The notes under the pieces were generated by a model that did no database searches, was not told where the DNA came from, and saw only the letters and a program-made list of their open reading frames with translations. From Vitis vinifera (Eukaryota; Streptophyta; Magnoliopsida; Vitales; Vitaceae): DNA of 64,000 nt. Shown here piece after piece: positions 34,798 through 64,000 of this stretch (position 1 is the stretch's first letter; each line of letters begins with the position of its first letter). Where the stretch lies: the NCBI RefSeq assembly GCF_030704535.1, contig NC_081807.1, forward strand, positions 7,714,001-7,778,000, written 5' to 3'. The position numbers and the translations under genes are program-made.

Positions 34798-34989
34798 GGC
34801 TGGAAACCTCTGATCCCCAAAAGATTGTATGAAATGAGTTGGTAAAGTAGACTTAGATGGGAAGAAAACTGCAGAAGGGGTTGACTAAAGGAGACTAAAG
34901 GTTTTATTCTTGTGTGTTTGGCTGCAGGATTGTGGGTGGACCCTCAATGACTTAAATCGTGATGATTCATTTTATTATTTCAATAAATA

Positions 34990-38373: not shown

Positions 38374-38626
38374 ATACGTACTGTGTCCTAGAGCCAAATT
38401 GAATTGTCCCTTGCTCAAAATCAAAGATTTACTTTAACAGATTGAAACTGGCAAAGTGGAAGTGAAATATAATTTCAACTTAAACCAAACAAGGCAAACC
38501 ATGCCATGAGTTAAAGCAGGGTAATATCTCTCCGCTTCTCTATAATACAATACATACCTTGGTATAAACATAATGTACTTTAGAATAAGGACATCATACT
38601 TTTGCAATTTGAGATCTTCGAATGCA

Positions 38627-40279
38627 TCATGAGATATTCTTCGAATGCATCATGAGCGAAATCTTGGCTTCGACTATCAAACTGTCATTTAATAAGAAGT
38701 ATTTGGATTTGTCATTGAGATCACTCAGAGATACCATATTAGGAAAACCCCAATTTTCGATTGTGTCACGGAACCAAACCTTAGCTGCAAATAGACAGAC
38801 AAATAAAAAGACGGTTAAGCGCTCTTAGTTAACAAATCAATCTTCAGAAGAAGAAAGGATTAATATTTGTTTGACAAAAGAAATCTAAACATAATACATG
38901 GAAAAGTAAAATATGCAATGTACCATTTGATTTAACATGCGATGGCATAACAATTTCATCATTGCATTGATCCTTTATCAACAACTCGAATGCAGTATAC
39001 AGTTTCCTTTGATGAAGTGTTTCACGATTAGTCAGCTCTAGAAAGAGGGACAGGCTTTTGTTCTTTGCCTTATTATTTCCTTTGGGGTAGAGAACCAACC
39101 TCCTGCTTCATTTACATGAGCAAGAAATAAACAAACAGTTCACATTTGGACATTAATCCACTTCACTGCAATCAAGAAAGAAGAGAAATGAAGGAAATGC
39201 ATTAACACATGCCATTTCAATTCTTTAACAGTGAATATTTCAGAGTCTAGGACTTCCTGATTCAGTGCGGAGAAATTCTCAATCGTCCAAGTGAAAGTAC
39301 CATCAACAGGATCCTTTATCATGGAAAGACTCTCCCCTTTGCCACTATATTTAATAACAAAAACCTCTGCTCCGAAAATGCAAGAATCATCCATCAAGTA
39401 TCCATTACGAGGATCCTTGAGAACATCCAGTGAAAGAAACTGAGCAAACCCACATCGAGTCTTCATCGCATTGAAGTGCCTTACCTTCCCATCAGCATCT
39501 AAGTAGATTGAGTGCATAATATTAGTACATGCTGTCTTCATCATAAAACTGTAAAAGAGATGTATTAGCTAAGAAAAAGACTACCTTGGACAGTTAAGTA
39601 CTTTTCATGTATATGATTAAACACAAACAATTTGAAGTTGACAGTAACCTCCCACCCAAGAGGAAGATTTTGAGCCTCTGATATTTCTAAATAGAGGGAG
39701 ATGTGACCTTCCCCGTCACTTTTTTTATTCCCATTTGGGTAGATACACAAGCTCCTGCAAATATAGAAGTACTCCAATTACGAGCAAAAGCAGGAAAAAA
39801 AAAGGGTAAAAAAGAGGATTCAAAATAAACCCACCATTTGTAGCCACCCACTTCAAATGAACCTGATTCATATTTTTCAATATCTGTGTTCAGAAGCACT
39901 GACAGAGATTCTACCTTGAATAAGTAATGGGCTGGCTGGATAGATCTTAATGTTCTTGATATTGCTTCAATATTTAATTTCAAAAGCATGAAAACATAGT
40001 ATTAGTATGCACTTATGGATAGTAAAGTAATGGCTGATGAAAAGTGATCTTAAAGTGTAATAATAAGGCTTGAATATCATCAAGCTTGAAGGCTAACAAG
40101 TCAAAAGAAGGAAGAGAGCATACAAGTGGTGTTACAGAGAGAGGTAGGATGCAAGGTCTTCTCTGCCACAACTAGTTCAACAGTGGAGATTAAGTTTGAG
40201 AACTTGTTCATATGTATGTATCAAGATGTTGAGAGGAGGAAGGAGAGCTACACTGACCTGGTGGTTTTTCATCCGCCAT
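38627..40279 (-). CDS. Two-MATH-domain protein, copy D (six exons, 314 aa)
   Basis: Exons are 40258-40279, 39835-39964, 39585-39754, 39213-39498, 38924-39102 and 38627-38784, totalling 945 nt with no internal stop. It starts MADEKPP like copy C. MATH 1 spans about residues 8-125 (YLFKVESLSVLLNTDIEKY, GGYKW, LCIYPNG, FKLFVFNHIHEKY). MATH 2 spans about 150-290 (GTFTWTIENFSALNQEV, LVLYPKG, KNKSLSLFLEL, FELLIKDQ). The acceptor of intron 1 is AAG here rather than CAG. Intron 4 has the GC donor (39211-39212). The stop has moved by a few bases relative to copy C (TCA TGA instead of TAA). It is probably a functional recent duplicate. Confidence 0.9.
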
Positions 40280-40469
40280 GGCTGGAAACCTCCGATCCCC
40301 AAAAGATCGTATGAAATGAGGATTTGGTAAAGAAGATTTAGAAGAGAAGAAAACTTGCATAGACTTGGAAGACAAGAAAAGACTAAAGGTTTGGTTCTTG
40401 TGTGTTTGGCTGCAGGATTGTGGGTGTCCCCAGTATTGCTTAAATCGTGATAATTCATTTTATTATTTC

Positions 40470-42063
40470 AATAAACAAAAAATTAATCTTTTATTTGATT
40501 TTAATTTATTTTATTTTTAATCCCACCAAGTCTTTTAACCACCCAAATCATCACCTTTAGTTAATCTGTTTTTTCGGATGATGAAAATATTTGTGATCAG
40601 AGATATATTAGTATTTCAATTTTATGGATATATGACGAATATTATTATAAAAATATCTCTAATGTAAAAACTAATTAAAATTATGAAAATATTAAATAAA
40701 AACTCTAAAAATTATATAAAAAGTAAAAATAGATATTTTAAAGTTATTTTTTAATTTTTAATATATATATATATAATTTATCATAATAATATCATATACA
40801 TGGATAAAAAATATAAATTTTATAAGTGTACATTTATTAAGTTGCATTATATTTATTTTACAATAATATTATGACAACATGTCTAATTTTGAAATATATT
40901 TAATATTAAAATTATGGTCTATTTTAATTTAAATGTATTCAATGATATCAAATAAATAATAATATATGTATAATTTTTTTTAATATTCTTATTTTTTATA
41001 TTTAATAAATATATAGATTATATAAAAAAACAGAAAATTATGTTTTTATATAATAAATTAAATCAAATGTAAAAATAAAATAATTAAAATTAAATCATTT
41101 AATAATCCAAAAATTAAAAAATGGTGAAATATCGATAAAATATCCAAAAATATCGATTGAAACACGGAAAAAAAATTGAAATATAGATACAATATCAAGA
41201 AATATGAATTGATGAATATATCTTTTCAAATTTTGTATCGGGGTTTATAAATATTGGATATATAAAAAATATATCGGCCATATATCCGAATATTTCAAAC
41301 TTGGTTTTTACTTTTGTATTTAATTATTATATCTCTTTCTTCCTAATGAAGTTATGTTGTTCTTTAGCTAAAAGTTAGAGAATGTGGAAAAATTGACAAA
41401 GAAAAGGAAACATCATCTACCAATGTTATGGAGCTTGCACACATAAACAATTTTAATTTTAATTTTTTTTTCCCATTTTGGTCTCTCTCTTAAATTTTTA
41501 TTTTTTATTCTTTCAATCTCAATTACATCTTTTCTTATTCGCATAAGTATTTTTTTTTTTAAAAAAAAAGATTTTATTGAAATTTCATTTCTTTATTACT
41601 TTGTCCACATTTCCAAATTTTCCTATTTTGTTTTGTTTTGTTTTTTTTTTTTGAAACATGCTTGTTAAAATTAAGTTCCATATGTTTATTTTTCTACTTT
41701 TTACCTCTTAATATAATATTATTATTTTTTTCAAGTCATGAACTAGCAATGATTTTTTACTTAAATGATTAGTTATGGTTGTTATTTCCTTAAATAATAT
41801 TTTTATTCTTTTTTTTTTTAACTTTATAGGATTATCCTTATTACACTTTAACTTTTTTTATTTTTTATTTTAGCATATCATTAGAGCATAATAATATATT
41901 CACAGATAAAGTAAAAGAAATCTTATTTGATTTCATAAACTCTATTATGAATAATTTAGTTTATTTGCCTTAATGATTAAAAAACATGTCGTGATTCTTT
42001 ACTTTCAGTTTTTAAAAACAAAGTGAAATAAAGAACATCTTTAAGAGAAGAAATATAAGTTTG
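40470..42063. other. Gene-free AT-rich interval
   Basis: No gene is seen. The part at 41370-41800 repeats sequence found at 35040-35400, the flank of MATH copy C. AT-rich spacer then leads to the start of the LTR at 42064. Confidence 0.5.
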
Positions 42064-44970
42064 TGGACCCTACAATTTCACGCGCATTCCCACTCGACGG
42101 TGTGACTCACTTTTTATTTTATTTGGTGAAAATTAGATTTTTTGACAAGACTTAAAGTCATTACTTATTTTTGTTTTATTTTTTAAGGGAAAAACAAAAT
42201 AAGAAATAAAAACCCTAAGTGTGACTTCTAAAGAAAAAAAAAAACAGGTCTGTGAAAAACCGAGTCTGGGTCCGAGGGTCAGGTTACTTATTGGGAAGGT
42301 ACAGTGATGAGTCGTAGCACCCCTCTAAGTCCGTATACGTACAACCTCTACTAAACGAATTGAGGGAATTGTGGCAATTAATTAACTCATTATGGATACC
42401 AAGAAAAATAATCAATGTACAAGTCATGGTGAAAATTAATATACACAAAATAATGATGAAATCTAATTATAAGAATATACAAAATAAATGACGACGAATT
42501 ATGCAAAATGATTTATTGAACTAAAAAAAATTAAAAAAAATAGTTTTCAAGAAATTTCAAAGGATTTTATAAAGAATGATTTCGAATTATTGATTTTAAT
42601 TTATTTATTTACAAAAAATAAGTTTCAATTTATTTTCAATTGATGATTTGTTTCAATTTCATTTGTATTTAATTTTCAAAAAAAGTTATTTGTATTTATT
42701 GTATAAAAAAAAATTTATTACAAAATTTTAATTTGGCAACAAAAATTATTTTACTTGCTTTTTTTTAGAAAATAATGAATTTTTACAATTTTATTTACAA
42801 AAGTATTTTGATTCATTTTCATTTAAAAAAAAAAGTGATTTTTACAAATTATTTAAAATGACATAACTTTATTTGCAAAAGAAATTTTAATTAAAAACAA
42901 AAACAAAGATTTAAATCCTCTATTTCTAAAAAAACACTTTTAATCCCATTTTAATTAAGGAAAAAGAATCCATTTTTAAAAAATATTTTTGGACAATTTT
43001 TATCAAACAAAGAAATTTTTGGACAATGTTATTAAAAACAATTCTTTTGGATTTTTCTAAATGCATTTTTCTGAATTTTTATAAATAAATAAAAACTTTC
43101 TTTTATTAAAAATAATATTTTAAAATTATTGTTTTATCAAAACACATTTATTGAATTCTTCCTCTCATTTAAACAAAATTTCTAATTTGTTCGATGTTCA
43201 ATTCTGTACACACTCAATAAATATATACAAACGAATATTTACAAGAACTAAAAAAAATACAACCAAATAAAAGTGAAAAATAAAATATATACCCAAATAA
43301 ACTTACAACAAGCTCTACGTGTCATAAATTCGTATTAAGCTATCAAGATTGCAGAATGAACCCATGCAAAAACAAAAATAGCACAAATGTAAATATCCAA
43401 AAATATGTAGAATCCAAAATAATTATTCAAGTTTCAAATTAGTCCAATAAATTTTAGCAATTAAAAATGGGCTCAAATTAACAAATATAGCCCTACAAAA
43501 ATATCTCACATGTCATAACCCCTAATATAAAATTTTCAAATTAATAACCAAAATATAAGCTCAATTAATCAAACCCAAAACATGATAAATTAAAATAAAT
43601 CTAATTCGGTCTAAATTTAATATCTTATAATCCAAGCTCAATTTTATATGCAAACTTAAATCCACAATCGAAATCAACTTAATTTAATATGCAAACTCAC
43701 ATCCAAAATATAGTACAATATTATATCATATCCGAATTAAATAATTAAAAGGAGTATAACCATATAAATTATCAATTAATTTAACCTAAATTAGCCAATT
43801 CTAAATTAATTTACCAACAATAAATTATCTCAAATTTTATATTAATTTACCAACAACAAATTAAACTAAATTCCATACTAATTAACAAAGCCCAAACATA
43901 AGGTCCATCAACAAACATATAGTGATAACAACAGCAATAACAACAAAAATAATAATAATAATAACAATAATAACAATGATAATAATAATAATAAATGCAA
44001 GTGGTGAGTGGCAGTGTGTGGGAAGGACCGTAGGGAGAAGAAAAATGGAAGCTAAAAAAATGGAAGCTGGCGTCTCGATCAGAGTCGTGGAGAAAGGCCA
44101 GAAAAGAGGGAGAGAATGGACGGGGGAAGAGAGAAAAGTGACAGTGGGTGTTCGGAGGGAGAAAAAAATAACCAGAAAAAATAGGGAAGAAAAAAAATCT
44201 GGAACTGGTCCCCGGCTAGCCGTGTGGAGCAAAATGGAGAAAATGGGGAGGAGGAGAAGAGAAATGGAGAAAAAAAATCGGTTGCCCCCTGTGAGAGTTC
44301 TTAGAGAGAAGTAGGGAAAGAAAAAAAAATCCAGCCAAGAATGGGGGCCCGGGCGGTCTTTCTTTTGGGATAGGTGGTTGTGTGTGGGAGGATCTAGAGG
44401 AAGAAAGGAGAGGGAAGGGAGAAAAAACCAAAAAAATGGGTGGGTGACTGTTCTTGGGAAATGAGAGAATGGGAGGGAAAAAAATAGGGGAAAAAAATGA
44501 GAGGGCCATCTAAAGGGAATTGGGGGTGAGAGAGAAGAGTAGTTGGGAAAGAAAAAGGTTAAAAGAAAAAGAAAAAAAAATGGGATGGTGGCCGATGGTG
44601 TTGGGAATGGGGGGAGGTATGGGAGGAGAGAGAAAAAAGAGTGGGGTAGGTGGGGAATGTAAGAAGAGAGGGGAGAGAGATGAAAAATAATAAAAAATAA
44701 AATAAAATATAATAATAATAATGGTAATAATAATGATAATAATAATAATGATAATAAGAATAATAATAATAATAATAACAATAATAATAATAATAATAAT
44801 AAAAGTAATAGTAATAAAATAAAATAAAATAATATACAAAATAATAAAAGCTAATAATTAGATGGTGAGTGGGCAAAAAAAACATATGTGATTGGAATTT
44901 AAAATCTGAAGACAAAATTGGGCTTAAAATTAATGTAAAAATAAAATTGAGACAAATTTTAAGGTCTACA
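42064..44970 (-). repeat. LTR 1 (3' LTR of the outer element), 2907 bp
   Basis: The plus strand begins TGTGGACCC and ends GGTCTACA; read on the minus strand this is TGTAGACC...GGTCCACA, a TG...CA LTR with 7 of 8 terminal bases inverted. The first 300 bp match the other two LTR copies at 48008 and 61501. The part 43930-44830 is low-complexity. Next to its inner edge (44971-44985) the minus strand reads GAAGAGGGACATATT, a possible polypurine tract where plus-strand priming would occur. No host gene fragments were found in this copy. Confidence 0.75.
43930..44830. repeat. AAT microsatellites bracketing a purine-only-biased stretch
   Basis: (AAT/AAC)n runs lie at 43945-43995 and 44700-44830. Between them, 44010-44690 is overwhelmingly G and A on the plus strand. 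The long open frames across it on the minus strand are Phe/Leu/Pro/Ser repeats created by that bias. Confidence 0.85.
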
Positions 44971-46559: not shown

Positions 46560-48007
46560 AAGTGGAGAAGATGACTTTGAACGCTAAACTAAAAGAAAAT
46601 GACAACTCTAAATGCTAGTAATGTAGCTCTGAATGCCGAACTAAAAGATAATGGCAACTCTAAATGCTAGGAATGTGGTTTTGAACACCAAGCTGACTAA
46701 TGGATTTGAATGTTTGACTGTGAACGATGACACTCTAAATGTCAAACTATGGAGAGATGGTGGCTCTGAATGCCTGATTGTGAACAATGACTTTAAGTGC
46801 CAAACTGTGAACAATGGCTCTGAACGCCAAACTAAGATATGATTCAGAATGCCAAACTAAACAATGGCTCTGAATGCCAAACTAAAAACATGGCTCTAAA
46901 TGTCAAATTGAAACAAACAACGGCTCTCTAAACGCCAAAATGAAGATGCAGCTCTAAACATCGAACTGAAATAGATATGATGGATTTGAATGCCTAACTA
47001 AAGAAAGACATGATGACTCTGAATGTCGTAACTAAGAAGATATGACAGCTCTGAACGCCAAGCTGTAAAGAGATGATGGCTCTGAACACTCAAATTGAGA
47101 AGAGATTGTAGCTCTGAGCGCCGAAACTGAGAAGAGATAGTGGCTCTGAATGCCAAAATAAAAAAAGATGGTGGTTGTGAACGTCATAACTGAGGAAGGA
47201 TGGTGGCTCTAAATACCAATCGGAAAAAAGACATGATAACTCTGAATGCCGAACTAGGAACAAACAATGACTCTGAATGCCAAACTGAAAAAACGGCTCT
47301 AAACATCAAACTGAAAAAAAATGGTGGCTCTGAACATTGGAAAGGTGACGACGAATGCCCGATCGTGATAGGATGATGGCTTTGAACGTTAAACCGTGAA
47401 GGGATAGTGACTCTGAACACCAAACTAAAAACATGGCTTTGAATACCAAACTAAGAAGATATGGCGGCTCTGAATGCCAAACTAAGAACTGATATCCCTG
47501 AATGTCAAACTGAGAAGGATGACTCTGAATGTCGTAACTGAGAAATGATGATGGCCTTAAACATCGAGTTATAAGGAGCTGGTGGCTTTGAACTCCAAAA
47601 CTGAGGAAGATGACTCTGAACGTTGTAACTGAGAAGCAATGATGACTCTGAATGCCGAGTTGTGAGGAGATGGTGGCTTTGAACGCCATAACTAAGAACT
47701 GACATCTCTAAATGCCAAACTAAGAAAGATGACTTTGAACGTTGTAACTGAGAAGGAGTGGTGGATTTGAACGTCAATCGGAAGAACTGACATCTCTGAA
47801 TGTCAAATTGAGAAGGACGACTCTGAACGTCATAACTGAGAAGAGATGATGGCTTTGAACGCCAAACTGGAGATGCGGCTTTGAACGCCAAACTGAAGAA
47901 GATGAAGGCTCTGAATTCCAAATCGAAAACATGGCTCTGAACACCGAACTAAGAAGGATGAAGGCTCTGAACGCCAAACTAAAGATGCTGAAAACTCTAA
48001 ATGCTAG
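46560..48007. repeat. Degenerate array of about 26-36-bp units (GGCTCTGAACGCCAAACTGA type)
   Basis: Dozens of copies of TGGCTCTGAACGCCAAACT-like units follow one another with variable spacers. The array continues at 57160-58000 after the nested LTR. Sequence AACTCTAAATGCTAGGAATG at 46656 is the same as the rejoined junction of the nested insertion (48007 to 57160). Confidence 0.85.
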
Positions 48008-48849
48008 TGTGGACCCGCATTTTTCACATGCGCCCCCACTCGATCCGCGAGACTCGCTTTTTATTTGTGAAAAAATATTTAGTTTTGGAAAAGTTGGAGC
48101 CGCCACTTATTTTATTTTTATTTTAAAGGGAAAATAAAACAAGAAAGAAAAAACCCTAAAATGTGACTTCATAATTTTTGGAAAAAGCATGTCTTTGAAA
48201 AACCCGAGTCTAGGTCCGGGGATCAGGTTACTTATTGGGATGGTACCTCTAAGAGGTAGCACCCCTCTAAGCCCTAAAAAGGTCTCTACTAATTAAGTTG
48301 AGGGAAATGTGGTAATTAATTGGTTAATTATAAGTACCTAAGTAGGCTAGGTGATTCCAAATAAAATAGCATGCCAAACAAGATCAAATCACAATAAAGG
48401 AATGTTAGGATGCGTACCTGGACTGCCTCTCAAGCGCTATCACAAAACATCAGAGTTAGTATAGAGGTATAGCACTCAACATGCATTTTATCCAAGCAAG
48501 TCAAGCATGCATCTAACATGGACATAGTACACGAGGACATAGATATTCCTGAATTTTGAAAATAGGGTGATGGAGAGCATACCTGGATAGTAACTTGAGC
48601 ACTTTATTGGGAAGCAAGGTTAGCTCAACAATAAATATAAAACAAATTCAAACATATCTCCAAGAAGAATCAAAATCAATCAAATACCAAACAATCACCT
48701 TTAGAGTCAAAATCAGAGAAGATATCAAGAATGTAGGACTCCCCACCAAAGTCCATATTACTTTTGCACGAATTGATTCAATGAATTCCATTGTTTGGAA
48801 TCATGAAGTGTATTCATGCTTGTTGAAAATCGAGAAAATCACGAAAATA

Positions 48850-49550
48850 GTTAAAAATCAAAGAAAACAGTGAAAGTGCATACCCGAAATAAAGTGGCAG
48901 CAAATTACATGTTAAAATCTGGATTTTGTACCTAAATGCTTCTAAGGAACCTTAGAGAAAACCAAATTCATTTTTTGATAGAAAAAGGTTTTGAAATCCG
49001 GCTTTAAGACGTATAAGATCATAAAAAAGAAGAGGAAACAATAGGAGGAGTACGATGTGAGGCAAGGCGGCCAAGCTGGATTAGTGTCTAAGCTGCTTTT
49101 GAGACTGAGTTACTTAGGTTGCCTGATGGAGTGGAGTTCGGGATAGAAAGACCCAATTCGTTGCCAAAGTATTCAGTGATCAGAAGCATTTCCATTTATA
49201 TGATAACTTGGTTCATAAGCTCAGATGGATTCTTCCCGACACTGGTCAAACACTGAACATGAAGCTCAAAATTCTTACTTTTCTGTATTATTATATTTCC
49301 TGCATTCTGTGCTATTTTCTCATCATCAAGGCTTGATTCTGCAGCTCTGTTAGAATACATACCCTTGCTGTTGCCATGAACCAATCAGATTTCATATTAT
49401 TCAATTTAGCTGTAGTATGATTTATCAGCTCATGAATTCCTTTTACTGAAGCAAAATTCCATTGCCCTTTTAAAAAATGATTGATACCTATTCTGTCTCT
49501 TCAAATGTAGAAAGAAAAACAGGGAGCCTTTGCAATTCTCTGAGCTGCAA
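48850..49550. other. Mixed LTR and unidentified captured sequence
   Basis: LTR similarity fades after about 48850. The minus strand at 49196-49384 has an open, exon-like stretch (SSLDDEKIAQNAGN, then FELHVQCLTSVGKNPSELMNQ) that I do not recognise. Sequence 49390-49550 reads like intron or intergenic DNA. Confidence 0.35.
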
Positions 49551-50510
49551 CTATCTTTGCATCACCATCTTGATAGAATCAGCATTATGACCACGTGTGT
49601 TTTTGTGATAAACTGTCCAAATTCCTTTGCAACCAGGTAGTTCAACCTCAGTGATCCTTTCTGGACGAATTGATTGCTGCAGAATACAGAGAGCACCATT
49701 CTTTCCATGACCGGAACAACACATCAGTTCATAATTACTTTGTTTAACAATGCCAGTTGCTTTTAGGTCAGTATTAATTCGGAGACCATAGGCGAAGTCT
49801 TTCAACGGACCAACATTGATGAGTGAATCACTCACTGAAAATGAAAATGTCTTCTGTGATGTGTCTGTGCTATTTGGAGCCAAACCATACAATGGCAGCT
49901 TATCACCGTTGTCCATATCTTGCAAAGCATCAGAAGAGGACCTGCGCGATCGCTTTGTTGAAGGCACATCACCTTCACTATCTCCAACCTTTTTCTCCAC
50001 ACTAGAAGACGGTATGGCAGTAAATTGCACAAGCAAACTATCTCCCAACTGACTGCCTGGAAAAGATAATGAACTTCCAATAGCAGCAATTCCCGAAGTA
50101 AACACTGATGCCCTAGACTTTGAAAGACCGAGTTTGTAAACCACCCGTCCATCACAAACCAGTGTCAGTAAAAGTAGCTCTCCTGTTTTTGTTTACAGCA
50201 TAGCCATATCATTTGATAACCAAGTTGCATTGGCAGCATCAAGCTCCACACTAAAAATTTGACTTGGGTATCTCTTGGCTGTTATCAATTGGAGGAGGCA
50301 CTAGAAGAAGCTTGTAAGCATTATGTGGGAGATCAACAGCAAACCACATGAGAGGATGCTGAGTTGTACTAATACTAAGCGCAGGAATCATGCAAGTATG
50401 ATGCTTTCATGAGACAGCCCAACCCAAGTAAACTCCCTCTCATGAAAAATTATCATCACAGGCTCAATATAACCATGTACAAATGTGAAGCTGTCCAGTT
50501 CTTCGCAATA
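49551..50510 (-). pseudogene. Captured fragment of CPSF subunit 1 (CPSF160)
   Basis: CPSF160 is the large subunit of the pre-mRNA cleavage and polyadenylation complex, a nuclear beta-propeller protein of some 1450 aa. Here only part of its N-terminal third remains. In order on the minus strand: FVHGYIEPVMIIFHERELTW near 50480, a damaged stretch with stops, SVELDAANATWLSND near 50240, KTGELLLLTLVCDGRVV, then a long clean frame 49551-50144 with SRASVFTSGIAAIGSSLSF, GDSLLVQFTAI, a basic KRSRRSSSDALQDM stretch, DFAYGLRIN and MCCSGHGKNGALCILQQS. It ends after HKNTRGHNADS at what looks like an exon border followed by GT, so some intron sequence is kept. The fragment cannot make a functional protein. 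Confidence 0.8.
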
Positions 50511-50716
50511 CTAATGACTGGTGGGGCAGGCCGATGTTGAGTGAAGCCTTCTATAGACCAAGATATTATGTAGAACAATAGACATTACTGCAGAAAACTG
50601 GGTGAAGTTAAGTCATGGCAATAGCTTGAGTGGAACTTCAATCCCTGATTGTTCCACAAATAATCAGCAAATTTCAGAATTTTCCTTGTTCTATGAACTG
50701 GGATCACCACATGAAA

Positions 50717-50955
50717 GGCTCAAAGTTGGACGATCAGATGGACTTGGAGACATCAAGTACTGCAAAAGGGATGCTTGTTCAGGAAATTCAGCAACCCAAG
50801 AAGAAGGGAGCTCTCCCTCCTATTTCAGATCATTAAGAACGATGCTTCTCTCCATTGCTGTTCCAAACGAGTGCCATAGTTCAAAGAATACAACTCCTAA
50901 GCTATACATGTCAGCCTTCTCATCAATCTTTGACCACCAGACAGTATTCCATCTG
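50717..50955 (-). pseudogene. Captured fragment of GCN2-type eIF2-alpha kinase
   Basis: The minus strand encodes IDEKADMYSLGVVFFELW, then GTAMERSIVLNDLK, a stop (TAG where a Gln codon is expected), then LPSSWVAEFPEQASLLQ and LMSPSPSDRPT. This is the C-terminal lobe of the protein kinase domain (subdomains IX-XI) of plant GCN2, the amino-acid-starvation kinase. Only about 75 codons are present, without the ATP-binding or catalytic loop. An intron boundary probably precedes it at about 50950. Confidence 0.8.
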
Positions 50956-52684
50956 TATATATGAATATGTTGATTTAAGCTTAGTCTCATGCACATTTAT
51001 ATCTGCCGAGTTTGCACATTTGTTGCAAATTGACATATCCTGCAGAAACAACTGGCTATTATCATCTGTATTTGGGCATGGAACAGCAGCGTGTGATTGA
51101 CCAGCTGGAACAATTTCAGATAGGAACTCTCGAGAGGGAGCTTGCTTCTATCCAAACCATTCCCCTTTTGTTTATTATGTGAAACATCATTAGCCGAATC
51201 TTGACCAGCACTGTCACGTGTTATTGGTGAGCTTGTTGGCATCTTGTTTTGGGCAGAATAATGAGATCCCTCAGTTAATTAGAGATCCATATCGACTAAA
51301 ACACCAGAATCATGGATTTCCCATGCTTTCTGCTGGACAACGATTGTCAGTTCTTTCTCTTGTTCACTTCTACTGGCAGTGGCTTGACTCTCCAATAAAA
51401 CCCCTGATGCACCCTGTAGCTCCTCATTTAATTCTGGATTCTTATCAGCATCGCTTTCTGTCATTGATGAGCTTCTAGGATGCTTGTTTTTGACAGGATT
51501 CTCTGACTGCTCATAATGAGTTACAAATTCCCCACAATAGAATATTATGATCGTCGGCCTTACAATACTGTTCTTTTAAAATTTTCTGCTCACTGGATAG
51601 TCATAGTTCAAACCATCTATATCAAAAGGCTTTCCCGGGCACTCATCTTCGAAACCTTCATGTTTGTCAAGGCCAACTACTCGTTCGCAATTATATCTGA
51701 ATTTCATCTTTGCAAGAGGTTCCAGGTACGGTCTGGTTAAGTATCCACTATTATCAAGCGGTTCCTTATCCAATTTATCCTCACTATCTTTCCCCTCCTC
51801 AATTTTCTTAGAAGAAGACTGCCTTGGAGATCCTGTGTCAGATATCCCATGAATGCTCTGACATTAGGACAGAGACTGCACTAAACTTGACACCAAATTC
51901 AAAGTAGAGTGAAGACTTGCTTTATTTATGATGCTAGCTCGGTCACCATTCCATCCACTCCTTGCGGAAGCAACATCTTTAATATCATCTGATTCTTTAA
52001 AGAATGATTCATCAAAATATTTGTCATCAATCTGTTTGACACCACTGTCTAAAAGAGAGAGATATGACTCAGAATCAGTATCAGATGCTTCGAAAACTAT
52101 CTCATTTTTCTCTCCGGACAGCTCTATTTCCACTGATTCACACTGTCCATCTAGAACATTTTGGATGGTATCGATTTTTAATTTGCATCTTTCAAGCTTC
52201 TGGCACATCCTATATGGACTTTCAATGGGACAGAGCTGCTATTCAGGACCTTCAATCAGACTTGTTTTGTGCATTGGAAGTATTCCTCGCTCATGTACGA
52301 GTCGTTGGAGATAGGTTCGCCGCTCACTTTCAGTATGGAGGACCCAGCCATACTTATCTTGATGAACAATTCGCAGCTCAGTATACATTGCTTCACAAAC
52401 CAATTCAAATGCACATTGCCACTCATTGATTTTTCTGAAGCAACAGACGCAGGGAAGCACTCACAAAGAGGCAGTAGTTGTTCTTTAGTAGAAAACATGG
52501 ATGCCAAATTTAGAGTGCTTGTCAGTAAGTTCTAAAGAGGAGTCAATCCGAACTGAAGATTCTTAACCAGTTCGGAATTTTTCACCAGTTTGCATCCTCA
52601 CAAGAAGTGTTGACTAGTATAGAATCTGCTCAACTATGGAATCTTCAGGAGAATGACCTAGGCTCTACACAAGCTGAAAGAATT
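50956..52684 (-). other. Unidentified exon-like pieces between captured fragments
   Basis: Several minus-strand open stretches have protein-like composition and splice-like edges. One at 51864-52208 is acidic (DTDSESYLSLLDSGVKQ, YFDESFFKESDDIKDVAS). One at 51576-51773 has RPYLEPLAKMKFRYNCERVV and ECPGKPFDIDGLNYDYP. One at 51279-51464 has LQGASGVLLESQATASRS. One at 52239-52460 starts after a TGCTTCAG acceptor and has EWQCAFELVCEAMYTELRIV. I do not recognise the parent genes. They probably come from one or more further host genes, with introns partly retained. Confidence 0.4.
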
Positions 52685-52939
52685 TCAATAACACAAGCAT
52701 AATATCGCAAAGAGCGACAGAACTTCTGATTCCCTAGCATCAGGTACATTCCTTGTGTAGTCACCAAGAACAGGATCCATCATTGGAGAAACAAGTTGCT
52801 TTCCAATTTGTGACTGATCTTCAGCCTTGTCCAAAAATATCTCAGTGAGCTTGAGAGTCTCTCCCTTAACTGACGGCAAAAGCTTTACGTAGGACGTTTT
52901 AGAGGCAAAGGGCCCTCCTTCAGCAATGCTAGAAATTTC
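52685..52939 (-). pseudogene. Captured fragment of exportin-1 (XPO1/CRM1), fused to SEC39
   Basis: The minus strand encodes AEGGPFASKTSYVKLLPSVK, GETLKLTEIFLDKAEDQSQI, GKQLVSPMMDPVLGDYTRN and PDARESEVLSLFA, the segment of plant exportin-1 just before its C-terminal HEAT repeats. The frame then runs into non-homologous codons and a stop at 52685, where the parent probably has an exon end. The upstream side is joined in frame to SEC39 sequence at 52928-52939, where both proteins have Glu-Ile-Ser-Ser. Exportin-1 is the nuclear export receptor of about 1075 aa; this is about 80 residues of it. Confidence 0.82.
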
Positions 52940-54475
52940 TTGATAATCCAATCTTGTTTTTAGCTGCTCTTCTATTATTTCAAACCCATTAAAGGCATCC
53001 GCAAGATTTAGCGGAAATGAGCAACCCATGAAATCCTCATCCCTAGTAACAGGTGGTTCTATAATTGATTTTGCTAGAGGGGCAATCAGATCATCTCTAG
53101 GAGCAAAACCATTCCTTGCCAACCAGGACAGAATGCTCAATATAGCTTCAGTTCTCACACTTATGCACTACTTTCCAGGAATTTAGCCAGGAATATATTT
53201 CTTACCATATTCTGTTTTCCTACTCAATTCAAGCAACCATGGAAGTTGTAATGCTGCAAAAGACAAAAATTTTCCATTCTCTCTCAGAAGAGATTCTCAA
53301 TCAGTCCCATTTTCCAAGGGTGAATTTTTAGCAACAACAGAAAGCATGGTTTTTTACGTCTTTGAAATGATTTTCTTGATCAACATTGTCAACCCCTTCA
53401 ACTAGTATAGAGCAATCTCTTAGATTAACAATATCTTGAATACTGTGAACTGGAAGTGAGATAACAGAAGAACCTTGAATTGAGAAATTGAGAGGATTTG
53501 TCCCTGTCGACATCATCAATGTCTCACACTGGCCTTGCGTATCTAGATCTTTCCAGGCATGTAGCAGTTCACCAATGGATTCCTCATCACAATGACTCAA
53601 GGCAAAACCTAGTAGCTGCTTTCGAGGATTTATATCCATGTTTTCAAGGGCAGGACCCCTTGCTATAGCAGCACATAAGTCCCAAATGGGACCATGTCCT
53701 TTCTTTGCCAAACTAAGCCAGAGATCAAAGGTCAATTGTAGATCACCAGCAACCGCTGCTTCTCTTGCAATAACTTCTTCAACAGCTGATACATCATCCT
53801 GAGAATTCAATCCAAGGAGTTTAGCAATTTCAATGAGTTCATCAACCTGTAGATAAGCTCCAGTTCGACTTGTTATTGTCTTTTTAATGATTTCCATAGG
53901 ATCTTTTATTTGCCTAAATTGCATTGGCAAAAGAGTGACTCCTAGTTCTGGAAGTTTAACAGTGAAAGCATCAATTACATCAGCCTCTACTTTGACATTT
54001 CTACCATCTGGAAAGAGCTTCAGACATTCCTTAGCCTTCCAGATTTTGGAACAAGTGAGACTGGAAGCTGAGAAAAAATACTCTCTTGTAGCTTAAATGA
54101 CTAAATTTTCTGCCTTCTTTGATGCCAAAGAAACTGGACCAATACCCTTTAGATAATTCCTTGCGAGGGAAAACTTCCCAACTTTCAGCAGTCCCTTACA
54201 GAATTCAATCAACATATACTTTAGATCCAGAAAAGGAAATACTTTTTCTTGCAAGTACTGCATATCATGCCACATGTTTGCCTAATCATTATTTGACCGG
54301 TTGGGCTGTCGACGAACAAATTTTGAAAGTATGAGACGAAGAATCTGTTTTACACCCTTTTCATCTGAATATGCCTCTGCAAAGAAATTTAATGGCTTTG
54401 GAACCTGGTAATATACCAACAGCCGCCCAGCTTCAATATGTCCTTCAGCCAGCTTTAGTCTTTGCTCCAGGCCCT
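52928..54475 (-). pseudogene. Captured fragment of SEC39-domain protein (MIP2/NBAS type)
   Basis: On the minus strand, in order: LKLAEGHIEAGRLLVYYQVP near 54450; SDEKGVKQILRLILSKFVRR; a stop at 54282-54284 (TAG for Trp); MQYLQEKVFPFLDLKYML; GKFSLARNYLKG; a stop at 54093-54095 (TAA for Gln); EYFFSASSLTCSKIWKAKEC; then a clean frame 53328-53930 with TGAYLQVDELIEIAKLLGL, GPIWDLCAAIARGP and ISLPVHSIQDIVNLRDCS. A damaged stretch follows at 53160-53330, then RTEAILSILSWLARNGFAPR. This is the Sec39 helical-repeat region of plant MAG2-interacting protein 2, a roughly 2400-aa tethering factor for Golgi-to-ER vesicles. The piece covers perhaps a fifth of it. No intron was evident within the fragment. 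Confidence 0.82.
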
Positions 54476-56330
54476 TCTACATGTGGAAGCTTTGATAAAA
54501 TGGCACTCATTATACTCTCTGATTCAGAAAAGCTGCTATCTCTACTAGTTCTGAATACATTAGATGATAGTGAGTTCTTGGACATAAATGACAAAGTTGG
54601 TTCGTTGTATTCTGTAGGCAAAATCTTAGGATCTTCATGAAGGATATTCCTATCGCTAATTTCATTTTGCTTCCGAGAATGAGGGCTTGACTGATCTAAA
54701 ATCTTAAGCACATTGCATGGAAACGATTCAGATGGTAGATGACAGATGTTTTCTGAACTATTCAGTCTCTGATCGTTCAGAGGCTAGCAAATCCTCTTTC
54801 TTTTGAAAACACACACTACTGATGGGAGATGTGGTAGTTCCTTTCCTATAAAATTGCTATCCCAATAAGTGAAGTTCATGCTCTGTTTCATCCTAGCCAA
54901 AAGAAAAACAGCTTCTAAAGCTTCAGCAACATCTCAATTAATAATTCTATTGCACATCACAAAATTCTGTAATGCACAAATTGCCACCGTTTTGTGCAGA
55001 TTTTAAGAAATGCCCTGACAAAACTGACAAAAATTCGCAGGCAGAGGACTTTAGTGCATTCAAGTTATCACCCATAGTTTGTGAGGTATTTTATCAAACA
55101 GCTCCTGAACAAAAGTAAAGCTTCCCACCTCAACATATGCACTGACTGTTATAGTTTGACACGCCATACCTTGCTCACGAATTGAAGAAAAACATCCAGT
55201 AGCAAGCAGCCAAGCTGTCCAATCCTGCCACATGTAAACTAAATCACTTCCTGCTTGAACCCATATTTCAGAACAGTGTCATATACAGACGAACTGAAAC
55301 TTTCACGCAGAGAATACGAAGCTAGACACATTGCTCGTCACTGATTCCCCCATCTAATCATCCTCCTATGTCTTCTTCTCAAATTTAACCCCTGATTTGC
55401 TCAAAGATAATAAACAGAAGACCCCGCAATTAATGGTAAACAAGCGCAAAACTCCTCTGCCACATACGAATCTTTAAAATCCCATTAACAAGTCAATCAC
55501 GGTTCAGGATTCAGCAATAACATCAGTAGAGAATTGGATTGTTTGAAGGGATTGTCGGGCTTGCCAAACAAAATGTCTTTTGAAACATCTTTGCATCGGA
55601 AGATTTGGCACCATTAAACTATGGCAGTGGCTTGAGCGGAGCTTCAGTCTTTAATTTCTCAGCAAATTATCAGCAGGTTCTAGAATTTTCCAATATCCGG
55701 AATACACTAGGATTACTACACACCTCATCCTTCATCCCTCATATCGACACTTCCGTCATTCCCCAATGCGCACCCAAATACAAAGGCGAGGATTCGAACA
55801 CCGTGTGGGGAAAGGAATATAGAATAAATAAAATAATAATAATAATAAAAAACGAAGTAAAACTCAGAGAAGGAAAGAGCAGAGGGTATTGATCAGTAAA
55901 CGTAAATAACCCCCATTTCAAGTGTTAATCCATGGGTTGATAATAGTGGGAATAGAGCAGAATAGGATTTAAACAAAAAAAACGAACATGATCACATTCA
56001 GGCATGGAGTCATATACTTTCGAAGACATCTATAAACCCAAAATCAAAACAAGGCAAACAAGCAGGCAACGAATCTCAACAAAACAAATTGTGGCCCTTT
56101 TCGTCCACACCAATCAACAATACATTGAATACTCGGAAACGAACACGAGGAAAAATCGAACATAGGTAAAAATTCCAATAGTAACGAAGAGCATACCTCG
56201 ACAGCCTTGATTGCAATTGCTCTGTTTCCGCTTCCTTTGTGTCTTCTCTTCAAAAATCCTCTGAAATCCTTTGTTGCTTGTTCACTCCTTTCTCCTTTTC
56301 TCCCCAATCCTCCTATGCGTGCTGCTCCAA
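54476..56330 (-). other. Further unidentified captured sequence
   Basis: A minus-strand frame at 54445-54711 (SKNSLSSNVFRTSRDSSFSE, MSAILSKLPHVEG) runs into the SEC39 fragment and may be its upstream part or another gene. Around 55180-55290 a piece reads WQDWTAWLLATGCFSSIREQ. Around 55010-55060 a piece reads LNALKSSACEFLSVLSGHFL. The frame 56044-56307 ends at a consensus donor (GTCGAG then GTATGC, about 56194-56205), as if it were the first exon of a gene. None could be named. Confidence 0.4.
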
Positions 56331-57154
56331 AAAGAATCTCCTCCCTCCATAAAAAAAAAGCTCCTCCTTCTCAACATGCTTTCACGTATATATATCAGCC
56401 CCCTCAAAGACCCAAATCTGTTCCCCCTAAAAAAGGCGAAATCTCCTATTTTCTCTCTTCTTTTCTCCTTATCCTTATTTTAAATCTTCCAATTCAAAAG
56501 CAATCTTCCAAATTTCAAACTCCCCTCCAAAACCTTCAAGGAGAGTCCCACCTTCCTTAAACTCCAATAGTAAGTTTCCTTGCAAAAGCATGAAATTTTA
56601 GAAGTTAAACAATTGCATGAATAGATAAATAAGTAAATAAATTAGAAAATGGTAAAAATAATAAATAAATAAATAAGTTAAGGAAAATAATATAAAGAGG
56701 AAGATAACCAATAAAAAGTGACTGAGAATCATAAAACTAAAACTAAAAATAAAAAATAATAATAATTAAAATAAAATAAAAATAAACAAATAAACAAAAA
56801 ATGGGCCCCACGAGCCATGCAAACACGCAAGTCATATAAGTCACGCTAAAAAAAACCTTAATAGACTCAGTATACCTAAACGGGCCTAAAGTGAGACTAA
56901 GTGGGCCTAAGATGATGCCTAATGGGCCAAGTGTATCTAAAAGTTATCCTAAAAAAAGCAAGAAAAGTCTAAATCTAAATCAAAACTGCCAAGGGTCACA
57001 ATAAGGGATCAAATAATCCCTCAACCAAAGTCTCCGAGGTGACTCAAAAAAAAGTAAATGGTATGAGTAGCTATGGGCCACCAAGGAACTATTGTGGAGC
57101 ATTGAAAACGAATTTTAAAGACATGTGCTAAATGGACAAAATTGAGGGTCTACA
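56331..57154. other. Distal LTR part with AAT and CT-rich tracts
   Basis: Low-complexity CT-rich (56300-56480) and AAT/AAAT-rich (56620-56800) sequence, then about 350 bp of unique LTR sequence ending in GGTCTACA. It corresponds in position and style to the purine/AAT half of LTR 1. Confidence 0.5.
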
Positions 57155-57431
57155 GCTAGGAATGTCGAACTAAGGACAAATGACGGAACCGAATGTCGAA
57201 ACTGAGAATGCGACTCTGAAAGTCAAAATGAAAAGGTGACTCTGAACGTCAAACGGAAAAGAGACATGATGGCTCTGAATGTCGAACTAAGGATAAATAA
57301 CGACTTTGAATGCCAAATTGAAGATGTGACTCTGAACGTCAAACGAAAAAGAGACATGATGACTCCAAATGTCGAATTGATGACAAATGATGGCTTTAAA
57401 CACCAAACTGAAGATGTGGCTCTGAACGCCC

Positions 57432-57800
57432 AAATGAAAATGCGACTCTGAAAGTAAAACAGAAAAGAGACATGGTGGCTCCGAATGTCGAACTGAGGAC
57501 AAATGACGGCTCTGAACGCTAAATTGAAGATGCAGCTTTGAACTCCAAAATGAAAATGCGACTTTGAACGTAAAATAGAAAAAAGACATGGTGGCTTCGA
57601 ATGTTGAACTAAAGACAAATGACGGCTCTAAACACCAAACTGAAGATGCGGCTTTAAACGCCAAAATGAAAATGCGACTCTGAACGTAAAACGGAAAAGA
57701 GACATGGTGGCTCCAAATATAGAACTAAAGACAAACGACGACTCTGAACGCCAAACTAAAGATGCAGTTTTGAACGCCAAAATGAAAATCCAACTTTGAA
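57432..57800. repeat. 116-bp higher-order repeat built from four shorter units
   Basis: The word TGCGACT (or TCCAACT) recurs at 57441, 57557, 57673 and 57789, an exact 116-bp period. Each 116-bp block is made of four related sub-units of about 32, 31, 27 and 26 bp, each starting with a GACTCTGAACG or GGCTCYGAAT variant. The surrounding 57160-58000 belongs to the same family but is less regular. Since 116 is not a multiple of three, coding is unlikely. Confidence 0.88.
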
Positions 57801-57999
57801 TGTCAGACGGAAAAAAGACATGGTGGCTTCGAATGTCAAACTGAGGACAAATGACAGCTCTGAATGCCAAACTGAAGATGCGGCTCTGAACACCAAACTG
57901 AAAGAGATAGTGGCTCTGAACACTAAACTGTGAACATGACAACTCCAAATGTCGTAACTGAGAATAGACGATGGCTTTGAAAGGCCGATCTGCAAGGAA

Positions 58000-58495
58000 A
58001 TGATGAGAGGAGGAATATGCCCCAGTGTAGCGTGTCGTCACAACTCTCAATCCACTGGAAGGGTCTAAAAGAGGCTCCCTGAGTCTCAAAAGATGCTTCA
58101 CTAGCGAGTCGGAAAGATCAAATCGACTATGAGTGCAAACTCACAATCGATCTGACTAAATCACGAGGCCTGATGATGTGTCACAATAAGTTAGACGTCT
58201 TTAACTCAAAATGATCTACTGGAAGAGTCCATCGTCATCTCAAATGAATGATCCACTAGGGAGTCTCAAGAGAATAGTCTGCTAGGGTAACTACCGTGAC
58301 CTCAACACAACAATCTACGGAAGAGTCATGGATAGTGGGACAGCCAAAACCCTAAGGTAGTGATCCTCTAGAGGCTCATCTCGACAAAAATCATCGAAAC
58401 AGTGACCAATAATGCGAATAAACATCACTCGACTGAGTAAAGAAGATTGTAGCAAGTATATGAGAAAACAATCATCTCCACAACTAAAAGAGAGA
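58000..58495. other. Spacer of the outer retroelement
   Basis: No gene is seen. It contains an early, diverged copy of the AATATGCCCCAGT motif at 58012, leading into the next array. Confidence 0.5.
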
Positions 58496-60866: not shown

Positions 60867-61100
60867 TCAAACATAATACTTCTTCAACTGATCTACATTA
60901 GTTGGCTCCGAGAATCGGTTTCCATCTAGATCCATCAACCATGCAGCGCCCTCTGGGGTCAGCTCCCTAATGAAGTAAGGTCCGCTCCAATTGGGTCTAA
61001 ACTTCCCTCTGGGATCTCTGATCAATCCTCTTATGACCCTTAAGACTGAGTCACCTTTCTGTAATGGTCTATCAATAATCTTTGCTATCTTTCCCTGCTA
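60867..61100 (-). pseudogene. Ty3/gypsy integrase C-terminus
   Basis: The minus strand encodes LQKGDSVLRVIRGLIRDP, RGKFRPNWSGPYFIRELTP and EGAAWLMDLDGNRF, and ends QLKKYYV with TGA at 60867-60869. The WSGPYFI segment is the GPY/F module that closes integrase in Ty3/gypsy (and not copia) elements; it fixes both the superfamily and the minus orientation. The reading frame is clean over its last 75 codons or so. Upstream it joins directly to gag-like sequence, so nearly all of pol was deleted. Confidence 0.85.
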
Positions 61101-61129
61101 GTGGGAGATGAAGGAAGAAATAGACTCAT

Positions 61130-61500
61130 CTGATCTCTATCTGAAACCCTCAAGCTCTCTCCTCGACACATCTATGACAGTATTAAATGAAAACTGTCAC
61201 AGAAACTCTTGAGCTAGGTCATCCTATGTCCTACGTCGCGAGGACTCCAAAGATGCGAACCAACGCTAGGCTAGGCCACTCAGAGATAAAGGAAACATGG
61301 TGATCATCTATGACTCGTCGAACCCATGGGCCCTCATCACAGTACTATAGAGTCGAAGATGAATGCGGGGACAACCAACGCCCGTGTACCTCTCAATGCC
61401 AGACATCCTGAACTTGGCTGGTAGATTGGCCACTAGTATACTATCAAGATCATCCTAAGTCGATAAACTGTCAGATACTCTCAACTGCCTGATACGCTGC
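61130..61500 (-). pseudogene. Retrotransposon gag (capsid-like) fragment with many nonsense changes
   Basis: The minus strand encodes RQLRVSDS, VANLPAKFRMSGIERYTGVG, CPRIHLRLYSTVMRAHGFDE, MITMFPLSLSGLA, RWFASLESSRRR, DDLAQEFL and QFSFNTVIDVSRRELEGF, the plant gypsy gag pattern. At least five in-frame stops interrupt it. Nearly all can be read as C-to-T (or G-to-A) changes in CAG, CGG/CGA or TGG codons. It starts at the very edge of the LTR at 61501, so the leader, primer-binding site and start of gag are missing. Confidence 0.78.
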
Positions 61501-62409
61501 TGTGGACCCCGTATTTCGGCTCATGCGCTTCCACTTGATGGTGAGCTCGATTTTTATTTGAAAAATGATTTTTATTTATTAAGAAAATGACTTGGAGTCG
61601 CCACTTATTTTTGTTTTATTTTTAAAAGGGTAAAAAAAATAAGAAAGAAACCCTAAGTGTGACTCCTTATTTGGAAAATGTGGTATGTGAAAAACCGGAT
61701 CGGGTTTAGGGGTCAGGTTACTTATTGGGAAAGTACGACAAAAACCGCAGCACCCCTCTAAGTCCCTAGAAACGGGTCTCTACTAATAAAATGAAGCTGA
61801 CATGACAATTGATGCGTAGATCAATGAATACCCAGAATGATTATACACGTATGAGAGTCAAAACACTCAATGCAGAATAACCGAAATGAGAGCAGGGCGT
61901 ACCTTGGTATCAAACGATCAATGCGCTATCACAAAAATAGGATTAGTACACAATAAAGACCATAAACATAGCTCACATGTCACTAAATCGAGTACAAAAT
62001 CATCAATGGCACGCATGACACTTCATTCGAAATTCATTTTTATTTTAAGGAAAATTTATTTGATGTGGGGCCCCCACCAAAGCCCGTTTTATTTCTGCAT
62101 GAATTGATTCCATAAATTCCATCACTTGGAATTATGAAATTTAATTTCTGCTTATTTTAAAACATTTTTTTTTTTAAAAAAAAAGGATGATGGCTTGCGG
62201 AAAAGAAAATGACAACCAATTTTATTGAAAATGGGACTTGTGAAACCTAAAAGCTCTAAAGATGAAATATGGGAGAGTCGGGATTATTTAAAAAAAAAAG
62301 AATTTGAGAAATTATTTGAGGAATGAGAGTGGGAAATTATTTATAAAAGCAAAACAAGGATGAAGAAAGTGGGAGGTGGCACGTGGCCCAAAGGTAGCCA
62401 TGTAGAGGT

Positions 62410-62945
62410 GATCCTGCAGTGAGACTGGATGCCTGAATTATCACTTGATCAAACGATGGCATTGTGGGGCTCTGCTCTCCATTGGGATCCCAGTCGAATC
62501 ATGATTTTAATCTTGACACCAAGGACGTTCCATCTGAGGAGAACATTGCCTCTTAGCTCAGTTAATACAATCCCCCAACAGATTGATCAGAAGAGATCAT
62601 GTACTCATCCTTAAACGTCACTGACTTGGCATGCTGAATATAGGGCTTTTCATTCACAACAAATCGACGTACTCTCACCTCTCTTTTCATAACAAAACCC
62701 AGGACACCATAGCAAATTCTCCGAACAACAGATCCTCCAAGAAGCTTGAATTACGGTGGATATTTTCTGAACCCTTGCAGCCAGTTCTCTTCTTCCCTGC
62801 TTACAGAGGACATTCTGAGTCTGGGTGGCATGAATGATAATCTCTGTGAGCATTGGAATTACTCTAACTTCAACGCCAGAGCCTCCGTCCTTAGCAAGCC
62901 TTCTAACCAACATCTCATTAAGCCCTGCGAATATGCTTACATCAG
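62410..62945 (-). pseudogene. Captured fragment of ribosomal protein S3 (uS3)
   Basis: On the minus strand: [56 protein letters not shown]. After a deletion and frame changes follow [26 protein letters not shown], and near 62450-62490 DWDPNGEQSPTMP, the C-terminal tail region. These match consecutive parts of cytosolic 40S protein S3, including the KH-domain region. The part between VVQK and the CYGVLRF motif is missing. Several stops and frame changes make it non-functional. Confidence 0.82.
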
Positions 62946-63149
62946 AGTGGACATATGCTCTTCATCGTTCGCGTTGGTGGGTGATGTCATCTATGTGCAC
63001 ACCTGCCAAGTTCACTTGCCGAGGACGCACAGATCAGAGTCTTCATCTAGATTGAAATGCACGGTGGTTCTGGTGTAGTTATAATGGATGCCGGCTGTAC
63101 TGTGCCACTTAGCGAATATGTCATTCTCTAGAGCTGGATCGTCTCTTAT
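62946..63149 (-). other. Short unidentified fragment between RPS3 and nucleoporin pieces
   Basis: At about 63020-63145 the minus strand reads DIFAKWHSTAGIHYNYTRTT followed by VHFNLDEDSDLCVLGK, with a stop after it. It looks like real protein sequence from another host gene, which I cannot name. Confidence 0.4.
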
Positions 63150-63375
63150 AGCTAACAGCTGGGAAATATTTTCAACCTTAGCGGCTACATAAGTAAGAAA
63201 AAGTCAGGCGCATTTGACATGACTTTTAGAAGAGGTTGTAGCAGGGTGGAACTGATGTAGGAAGAATTCCTATCAAAACCTATGAGTGACTGCTCTAACT
63301 CTTCGATTCGCTATAGGTATTCACCCAGATGCCTCTCAAATTTAGTAACTATTTTCAGCAACACTGGAGACGTTT
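63150..63375 (-). pseudogene. Captured fragment of nucleoporin p58/p45
   Basis: The minus strand encodes [52 protein letters not shown] and, after a frame break, AAKVENISQ. This is the coiled-coil region of the plant NUP58 family, a component of the central channel of the nuclear pore. One stop replaces a Gln codon (TAG). About 70 residues remain. Confidence 0.7.
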
Positions 63376-63750
63376 TCCTCGGGAGTCCACTGCAAAAAAA
63401 AAACTAGTGCCATGGAGATGAATATTGATTGATTGCTTGCACTAAGGACCAATGCTGCCCTTGAAACTTGAGTTGGTCTTGGAGGAGGGGGTCTTGAAGG
63501 TGGTGGAGCACTGGTGGGTTGTGTAAAGAGAGGAATATCTGATACAATGAGCCACACATCATCAGATGAAGACAAATTCTCTTCAGATCTAGGAGACATC
63601 TCTCCCTGGGGATTTGTTTCATTAGGAGTAGCATTCACATGTGAAGGAGGAGAAGACGTCTGACTGAAAGATTTATGAGAATCTGTGGAAATTGTAGGAA
63701 TGTCAAACAAGATTTGATGAGGTTCCCAATAATTTTCAGCATGCATCTTC
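63376..63750 (-). pseudogene. Captured fragment of an auxilin-like protein
   Basis: The clean minus-strand frame includes [59 protein letters not shown] and a Pro-rich [20 protein letters not shown]. This is the low-complexity, clathrin-binding middle region of plant auxilin-related proteins, which recruit Hsc70 to uncoat clathrin vesicles. The C-terminal J domain is absent. The frame runs on without a break into the nucleoporin fragment ([12 protein letters not shown]). Confidence 0.72.
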
Positions 63751-64000
63751 TTTTGAGATGGCTATCCTGACCCTCAACTGAGGAATTTTCAATTAGTTCC
63801 TTAGTAGCAAAAATTTGAGTCTCACTTGTTGGTTCTGTGCTCGAAGAACTCCTATGGCCAGCACATAACCAACGACATTCATTCTTCTTATCATCTGATC
63901 AAGGTTCCTGGAATTCAGAATGGACTGGTCTGATCCAAATATATTGCCCGGTAGCTGCTCATTTGGAGGGTGTGGCTGCATAGATGGATGCATGGGAATT
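63751..64000 (-). other. Unidentified captured piece at window edge
   Basis: A minus-strand open stretch (PNEQLPGNIFGSDQSILNSR, NLDQMIRRMN) has protein-like composition but is not recognised; it may continue past the window. Confidence 0.35.

Follow-up and report, generated by a model that had tools for sequence, protein, structure and literature searches.

A solo long terminal repeat in the Vitis vinifera genome carries fragments of at least five host genes, three of them derived from spliced RNA

We analyzed a 64,000-nucleotide stretch of the Vitis vinifera genome (the window; C3:7714001-7778000) against its own assembly (495.6 Mb, 21 contigs). A 9147-bp unit at window positions 48008-57154 is a solo long terminal repeat (LTR) of a high-copy Ty3/gypsy retrotransposon family and carries, on a single strand, fragments of at least five host genes (CPSF160, a GCN2-type kinase, SPIRRIG, exportin-1, and SEC39/MIP2). 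The CPSF160, MIP2, and exportin-1 pieces derive from spliced RNA, and in a recent relative on contig C9 a SPIRRIG block is found in both LTRs, that is, the cargo lies inside the LTR. The arrangement is real and unusual, and is a new form of LTR-mediated retro-capture. In all likelihood, it arose when reverse transcription switched templates to host mRNAs inside the LTR, and LTR lineages later recombined with each other.

The unit starts with TGTGGACCC at 48008, terminates with GGGTCTACA at 57154, and has TG..CA ends. GCTAG was read directly on both sides (48003-48007 and 57155-57159), which bears out the clean target-site duplication described in an earlier note on this DNA. The LTR-like ends claimed there were sustained by the TG..CA termini, the duplication, and the primer-binding site (PBS) of the family, but the whole unit is one LTR and not an interior between two. 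The reading of the unit as a pair of LTRs was rejected because no LTR-sized direct repeat was found when 48008-57154 was searched. Comparison of the first with the last 500, 1000, and 1500 bases gave a score of 31, which was equalled by 1, 13, and 6 of 60 shuffles, respectively. Similarity of the first 1200 bases to the rest of the unit (reached in 0 of 20 shuffles) was traced to an AT-rich run and discarded. Over the outermost 17 bases, the two ends are imperfect inverted repeats of each other (14/17); the end inverted-repeat score was reached by none of 500 shuffles at 20 nt, by 2 of 500 at 30 nt and again at 50 nt, and by 44 of 500 at 100 nt. A DNA transposon with terminal inverted repeats (TIRs) was rejected because relatives have a PBS and two LTRs, and a one-off single-LTR cDNA because the C9 element has two LTRs. 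The unit is thus a single copy between its duplication, without an internal region.

We took the minus strand as the sense strand of the unit because a TATA-like box (56394, 761 bases from the 5' end of that strand) lies near its 5' end and AATAAA motifs (48065, 48116, and 48122) lie near its 3' end. The left end of the unit is the 3' end of the LTR, since the PBS follows the same end in two relatives, the coding locus L014 and the C9 element. On the minus strand, the 5' module (U3 side, 55079-57154) contains the TATA-like box, and the 3' module (U5 side, 48008-49125) contains the AATAAA motifs; alignments to family loci stop in the latter at about 48.45-48.52, 48.90-48.95, 49.07-49.08, and 49.125 kb. 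The inner edges of the modules recur, at 55078-55085 in eight aligned loci (two of them 97.5% alike) and at 49125-49126 in three. A 71-bp direct repeat (76%) within the unit pairs 50615-50685 with 55621-55691 and is also matched by three loci (L045, L052, and L057). The unit interrupts a degenerate tandem array (46700-48007 and 57160-58000); a repeat array also occurs between the C9 LTRs, and the array around the unit may be the interior of another relative.

All five named host gene fragments lie on the minus strand. Four of these unrelated genes had been recognized, on one strand, in the earlier note, and SPIRRIG was added as the fifth. The CPSF160 piece (49566-50504, E = 4e-29) covers residues 195-540 in P0121 numbering, with the introns gone and 31 residues missing. 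An open reading frame (ORF) at 50823-50996 carries, by protein matches, a piece of an eIF2alpha kinase; its top match was eIF2AK1 (E = 5e-7), and yeast GCN2 was matched at E = 4e-6. To our knowledge, GCN2 is the sole such kinase in plants, and the piece was therefore named GCN2-type. SPIRRIG, a BEACH protein, is represented by 51651-52439 (residues 2128-2391 of P0001, 78% to a Vitis vinifera protein), exportin-1 by 52707-52931, which lacks one parent intron (663 bp), and SEC39/MIP2 by about 52929-54517 (P0241 residues about 817-1351, E = 1e-7), which lacks two. Exportin-1 and MIP2 share one open frame (ORF 52688-53167). MIP2 similarity starts near 54534; the assignment of 54.5-55.3 kb to MIP2 was rejected because 54535-55280 had no match to it, and this stretch carries no gene name. 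The same holds for further coding-like pieces beyond the five genes and for a piece at 52600-52711 (no strand assigned, 95% to C12:12550581-12550692). Pfam searches of most cargo pieces gave nothing above cut-offs. The top named proteins for SPIRRIG and CPSF160 were from Vitis vinifera or V. rotundifolia, and Vitis models ranked lower among the MIP2 matches because of gene-model differences. The named fragments are internal mRNA pieces, and the cargo contains stops and frameshifts. Parents of the cargo map to C16:2.3 Mb, C16:18.9 Mb, C16:27.1 Mb, and C7:0.86 Mb; they are unlinked and not collinear, and the mapping proposed in the earlier note thus yielded no single multi-exon gene.

In the CPSF160 parent on C16, residues 159-562 are spread over nine separate exon matches across 27.9 kb (18935360-18963270), and the captured residues 195-542 are contiguous within 945 bp (C3:7763560-7764504). 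The gap in the captured piece (residues 270-300, 31 residues) ends at the start of a parent exon match (residues 302-349), which would fit an alternatively spliced template. For MIP2, a parent intron on C16 (GTAAGT...TTTCAG) is exactly absent from the unit, and a second one, read on its AG side, is absent before GTTCCAAAG. Exportin-1 matches its parent on C16 in two exons that are separated by 663 bp there and are contiguous in the unit (all 8 candidates were scored). Intron loss in the cargo is also indicated by insertions resembling retained introns in homologous proteins. A single ungapped alignment to the parent, 911 codons long, contains the whole SPIRRIG piece, which is uninformative on introns. 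Because parent introns are absent from three genes, DNA copying alone does not account for them, and the DNA-level copying argued for earlier is refuted for CPSF160, MIP2, and exportin-1. The intron-like edges on which it had leaned did not hold up where tested: the piece at 52.4 kb is SPIRRIG, with both edges within exons, and the CPSF160 piece has its two edges within the parent exon matches of residues 159-208 and 512-562. For MIP2, the 3' edge is likewise exonic. At the MIP2/exportin-1 junction, the two parent matches overlap by 19 nt (52913-52931), and GAAGGxGGG is common to the unit and the MIP2 parent.

Genomic capture followed by splicing was weighed against these edges. In such a two-step capture, intron-bearing genomic segments would have been joined into the LTR by recombination or by a nested Helitron or Mutator-like element (MULE), and the long transcript would then have been spliced and retrotransposed. 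This would account for the missing introns, the common strand, and the amplified blocks, and exons with introns have been picked up by grapevine TIR elements (PMC2528002, in the part available). However, edges would be expected at splice sites, and those tested (two for SPIRRIG, two for CPSF160, and the 3' edge of MIP2) are inside exons; the 27.9 kb of the CPSF160 parent would be a large genomic piece to capture, and the overlapping parent matches where MIP2 joins exportin-1 also speak against it. We consider two-step capture unlikely. The earlier note had also suggested a fragment-collecting Helitron or Pack-MULE that landed inside the LTR. Maize Helitrons with up to nine fragments are described in the accessible text of PMC6431247, but this origin is not supported here: Helitron cargo is captured at the DNA level and can keep introns, which have been removed from three genes in the unit, and in place of the long TIRs and 9-bp duplication of Pack-MULEs, the unit has an inverted end match of 17 bp and a duplication of 5 bp. 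Moreover, no long inverted repeat was found inside the unit besides one AT-rich 20-mer pair, no delimited inner transposon was seen (Helitron ends were not scanned), and other family loci carry differing cargo between the same modules. Such an insertion is very improbable.

The family was surveyed with the left 323 bp of the unit, which gave 3785 first-look genome candidates, of which the best 40 were scored; among 41 matches listed, 40 were at 91-100% and one at 73%. Twenty LTR ends, including the unit as copy 1, were picked for likeness to copy 1 and are not a fair sample. In one of the 20 (L014, on C16; LTR length 4851 bp), the LTR end is followed by a PBS, TTGGCGACTCCACTGGGGA, and then by ORFs with RVT_1, RT_RNaseH, RVT_3, and integrase core domains (Pfam; labeled L059 in the domain tests). 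The gag-like ORF of this coding relative had no Pfam match. Among the 19 ends besides copy 1, 7 can be aligned with copy 1 as far as 48.90-49.08 kb; in the other 12, the alignment stops at 48.45-48.52 kb. Interiors that looked coding-like by eye were present in some of the 7, and Pfam gave no match in the 3 tested. Two LTRs, a PBS, and reverse transcriptase and integrase domains were thus found in relatives of the unit. The PBS string and the second RNase H domain (RVT_3), which we take to be marks of the Tat lineage, suggest that the family is Tat-like; the PBS and second RNase H type of Ogre elements resemble those found here. Viral-contig scans gave 0 matches for a 22-mer and 7 stretches for a 16-mer.

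The C9 element is intact, has two LTRs of 6.3 kb each (C9:7176006-7182333 and 7189214-7195542), is flanked by CAAAT on both sides, and has the same PBS as L014 with 0 mismatches. At most 4 mismatches and 1 gap separate its LTRs, namely 3 mismatches plus the gap in 5093 bases, and 1 mismatch in a slightly overlapping 1534-base stretch. Block 52126-52532 of the unit was found in both LTRs at 96.6%, and by tblastn the block in the one LTR tested encodes SPIRRIG residues 2522-2620. In an ORF listing, the ORFs of at least 110 codons between the C9 LTRs were repetitive or of low complexity, and none was gag-pol-sized; the element is therefore probably non-autonomous. Four more candidate pairs on the same strand, with equal cargo spans and 14 to 38 kb apart, were seen on C1, C2, C6, and C9.

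Genome searches with the unit (best 40 of 381 candidates) showed that it is a mosaic of blocks 93-98% identical to differing loci elsewhere. On the minus strand, 50485-51658 recurs whole or in part at 93-96% in at least seven other places (C1 twice, C4, C12, C18, C9, and C6), 51645-52532 is 98% identical to C19:11725877-11726768, and 49137-49401 is shared with four loci (L018, L024, L027, and L049) at 69-78%. In addition, 49564-50824 matches C15, 52602-52931 matches C14, and 53394-57154 matches another LTR end on C3 at 95.5%. Other family loci have different cargo between the same modules and other block combinations, and the cargo blocks of the C9 LTR (best 40 of 233) and of a second family copy in the window (best 40 of 247) are likewise shared among loci. 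The comparison with other LTR copies recommended earlier thus showed blocks that recur in differing combinations, and, together with the cargo in both C9 LTRs, it favors the suggestion that the LTR family itself gathers gene pieces. Among the best 40 of 381, SPIRRIG identity to the unit was 91% for the parent, 95-98% for six other places, and 87-88% for two. Being closer to the unit than the parent is, the majority of the shared copies seem to postdate the capture; the two at 87-88% are unexplained. An ordinary chimeric host gene, or a cluster of processed pseudogenes, flanked by repeats by chance would fit with the exact fragment combination being seen once among these 40. Against this stand the exact LTR termini with their target-site duplication, the recurrence of these blocks alongside LTR modules at many loci, the stops and frameshifts, and the cargo in both LTRs of the C9 element, and we regard such an origin as extremely improbable.

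In some LTRs of the family, host cargo lies between a 5' module with the promoter and a 3' module ending at the PBS. In the template-switching explanation, reverse transcriptase would, during minus-strand synthesis, leave the element RNA in its R/U5 part, copy co-packaged host mRNAs, and return to the element RNA. Given this location, finished reverse transcription would place the cargo in both LTRs, where it would be inherited, and later switching among co-packaged LTR RNAs could reshuffle the blocks. The 9.1-kb unit would afterwards have lost its partner LTR through recombination. The strand-transfer step is inferred, as are ongoing activity and any function. In a broader form, the family LTR could be a standing capture-and-shuffle compartment, with repeated mRNA switching and with cargo fixed in both LTRs, recombined blockwise, and still spreading, as the almost identical C9 LTRs suggest; it could act as an ongoing RNA-based exon-shuffling engine with chimeric sense transcripts from the LTR promoter. 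We hold this broader form to be possible, at somewhat less than an even chance. Several observations weigh against template switching within the LTR. The named cargo of the C9 LTR is SPIRRIG only, the rest being unnamed ORFs and a sub-threshold FAT match (E = 0.0014), and no full element was read whose two LTRs each carry several named host genes. A second LTR for the C16 coding element was not found in the next 9.8 kb, and Pfam named nothing on 3.2 kb of its LTR. The second family copy in the window has inverted rather than direct end modules, which the model does not explain. Furthermore, genomic capture followed by splicing of the element transcript would remove introns too.

This second copy (L028) spans 61501-69899 (61501-64000 in the window, continuing to C3:7783899) and has inverted 3' modules of ~770 bp at both ends (74.6%) with near-matching flanks, GCTGC and ACTGC. 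One half carries RPS3, a weak NUP58 match (E = 0.02), and a bHLH match just below the cut-off on the minus strand, and the other half carries an Hsp70 match on the plus strand; the cargo faces outwards in each half. An LTR palindrome and two facing elements are the candidate readings. Beside it, 60870-61454 contains degraded minus-strand ORFs that resemble gypsy gag and the C-terminal part of pol (by eye; no Pfam match). A possible third family LTR copy of 2.9 kb lies at 42062-44970, with a clear left end (73%), a tentative right end, AGGTCTACA, at 44970, and unlike flanks. Elsewhere in the window, a Mutator-like transposase ORF (MULE, DBD_Tnp_Mut) occupies 21430-22572 on the minus strand, and local duplicates (79-87%) lie at 30192-31733, 32888-35035, and 38374-40539, including a MATH-domain ORF at 39143-39568.

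A single LTR with at least five host genes, three of them from spliced RNA, has its cargo where retrotransposition copies it twice. LTR elements thereby gain a route to the heritable, modular shuffling of mRNAs, a process otherwise attributed to Helitrons and Pack elements, and the site of template switching becomes testable from the junctions of many copies. The cargo might also yield small RNAs against the donor genes. No description of host-gene mosaics inside plant LTRs was found in literature searched by title and the start of the abstract, with few subscription papers covered.

In the maize element Bs1, the cargo is placed between the LTRs, whereas that of the unit lies inside the LTR and comes from at least five genes. 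Like the unit, Bs1 has captured several host genes, with three cellular genes in one LTR element (PMC5408686 and PMC13317346, in the parts available). According to its available text, a maize survey turned up no LTR element carrying two or more genes under the conditions applied, Bs1 being the known exception. In the LTR-mediated retroposition described by Tan and co-workers (relayed in the accessible part of PMC5408686), template switching at short similarities copies host mRNA into the cDNA of an LTR element, as proposed for the unit; there, the parental mRNA lies between the LTRs, whereas here many parents contribute within the LTR and the pieces are inherited and reshuffled. In the BARE-2 LTR, template switching changed the LTR itself, as here, but the donor was another retrotransposon rather than host mRNA (PMC13317346, same portion). 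Retroduplicated NLR genes of pepper and other plants share intron loss and an LTR vehicle with the unit, but they lie inside LTR elements, whereas the mosaics here lie within LTRs (available part of PMC5664825). Ogre elements have very long LTRs (1.9-6.5 kb), like the present family, and host cargo in them is not mentioned in the accessible text of PMC6431247. Finally, Helitrons, Pack-MULEs, and Pack-CACTAs resemble the family in carrying multi-fragment cargo that is shared and shuffled among copies, but theirs is a DNA-level capture able to keep introns, with other ends and duplications.

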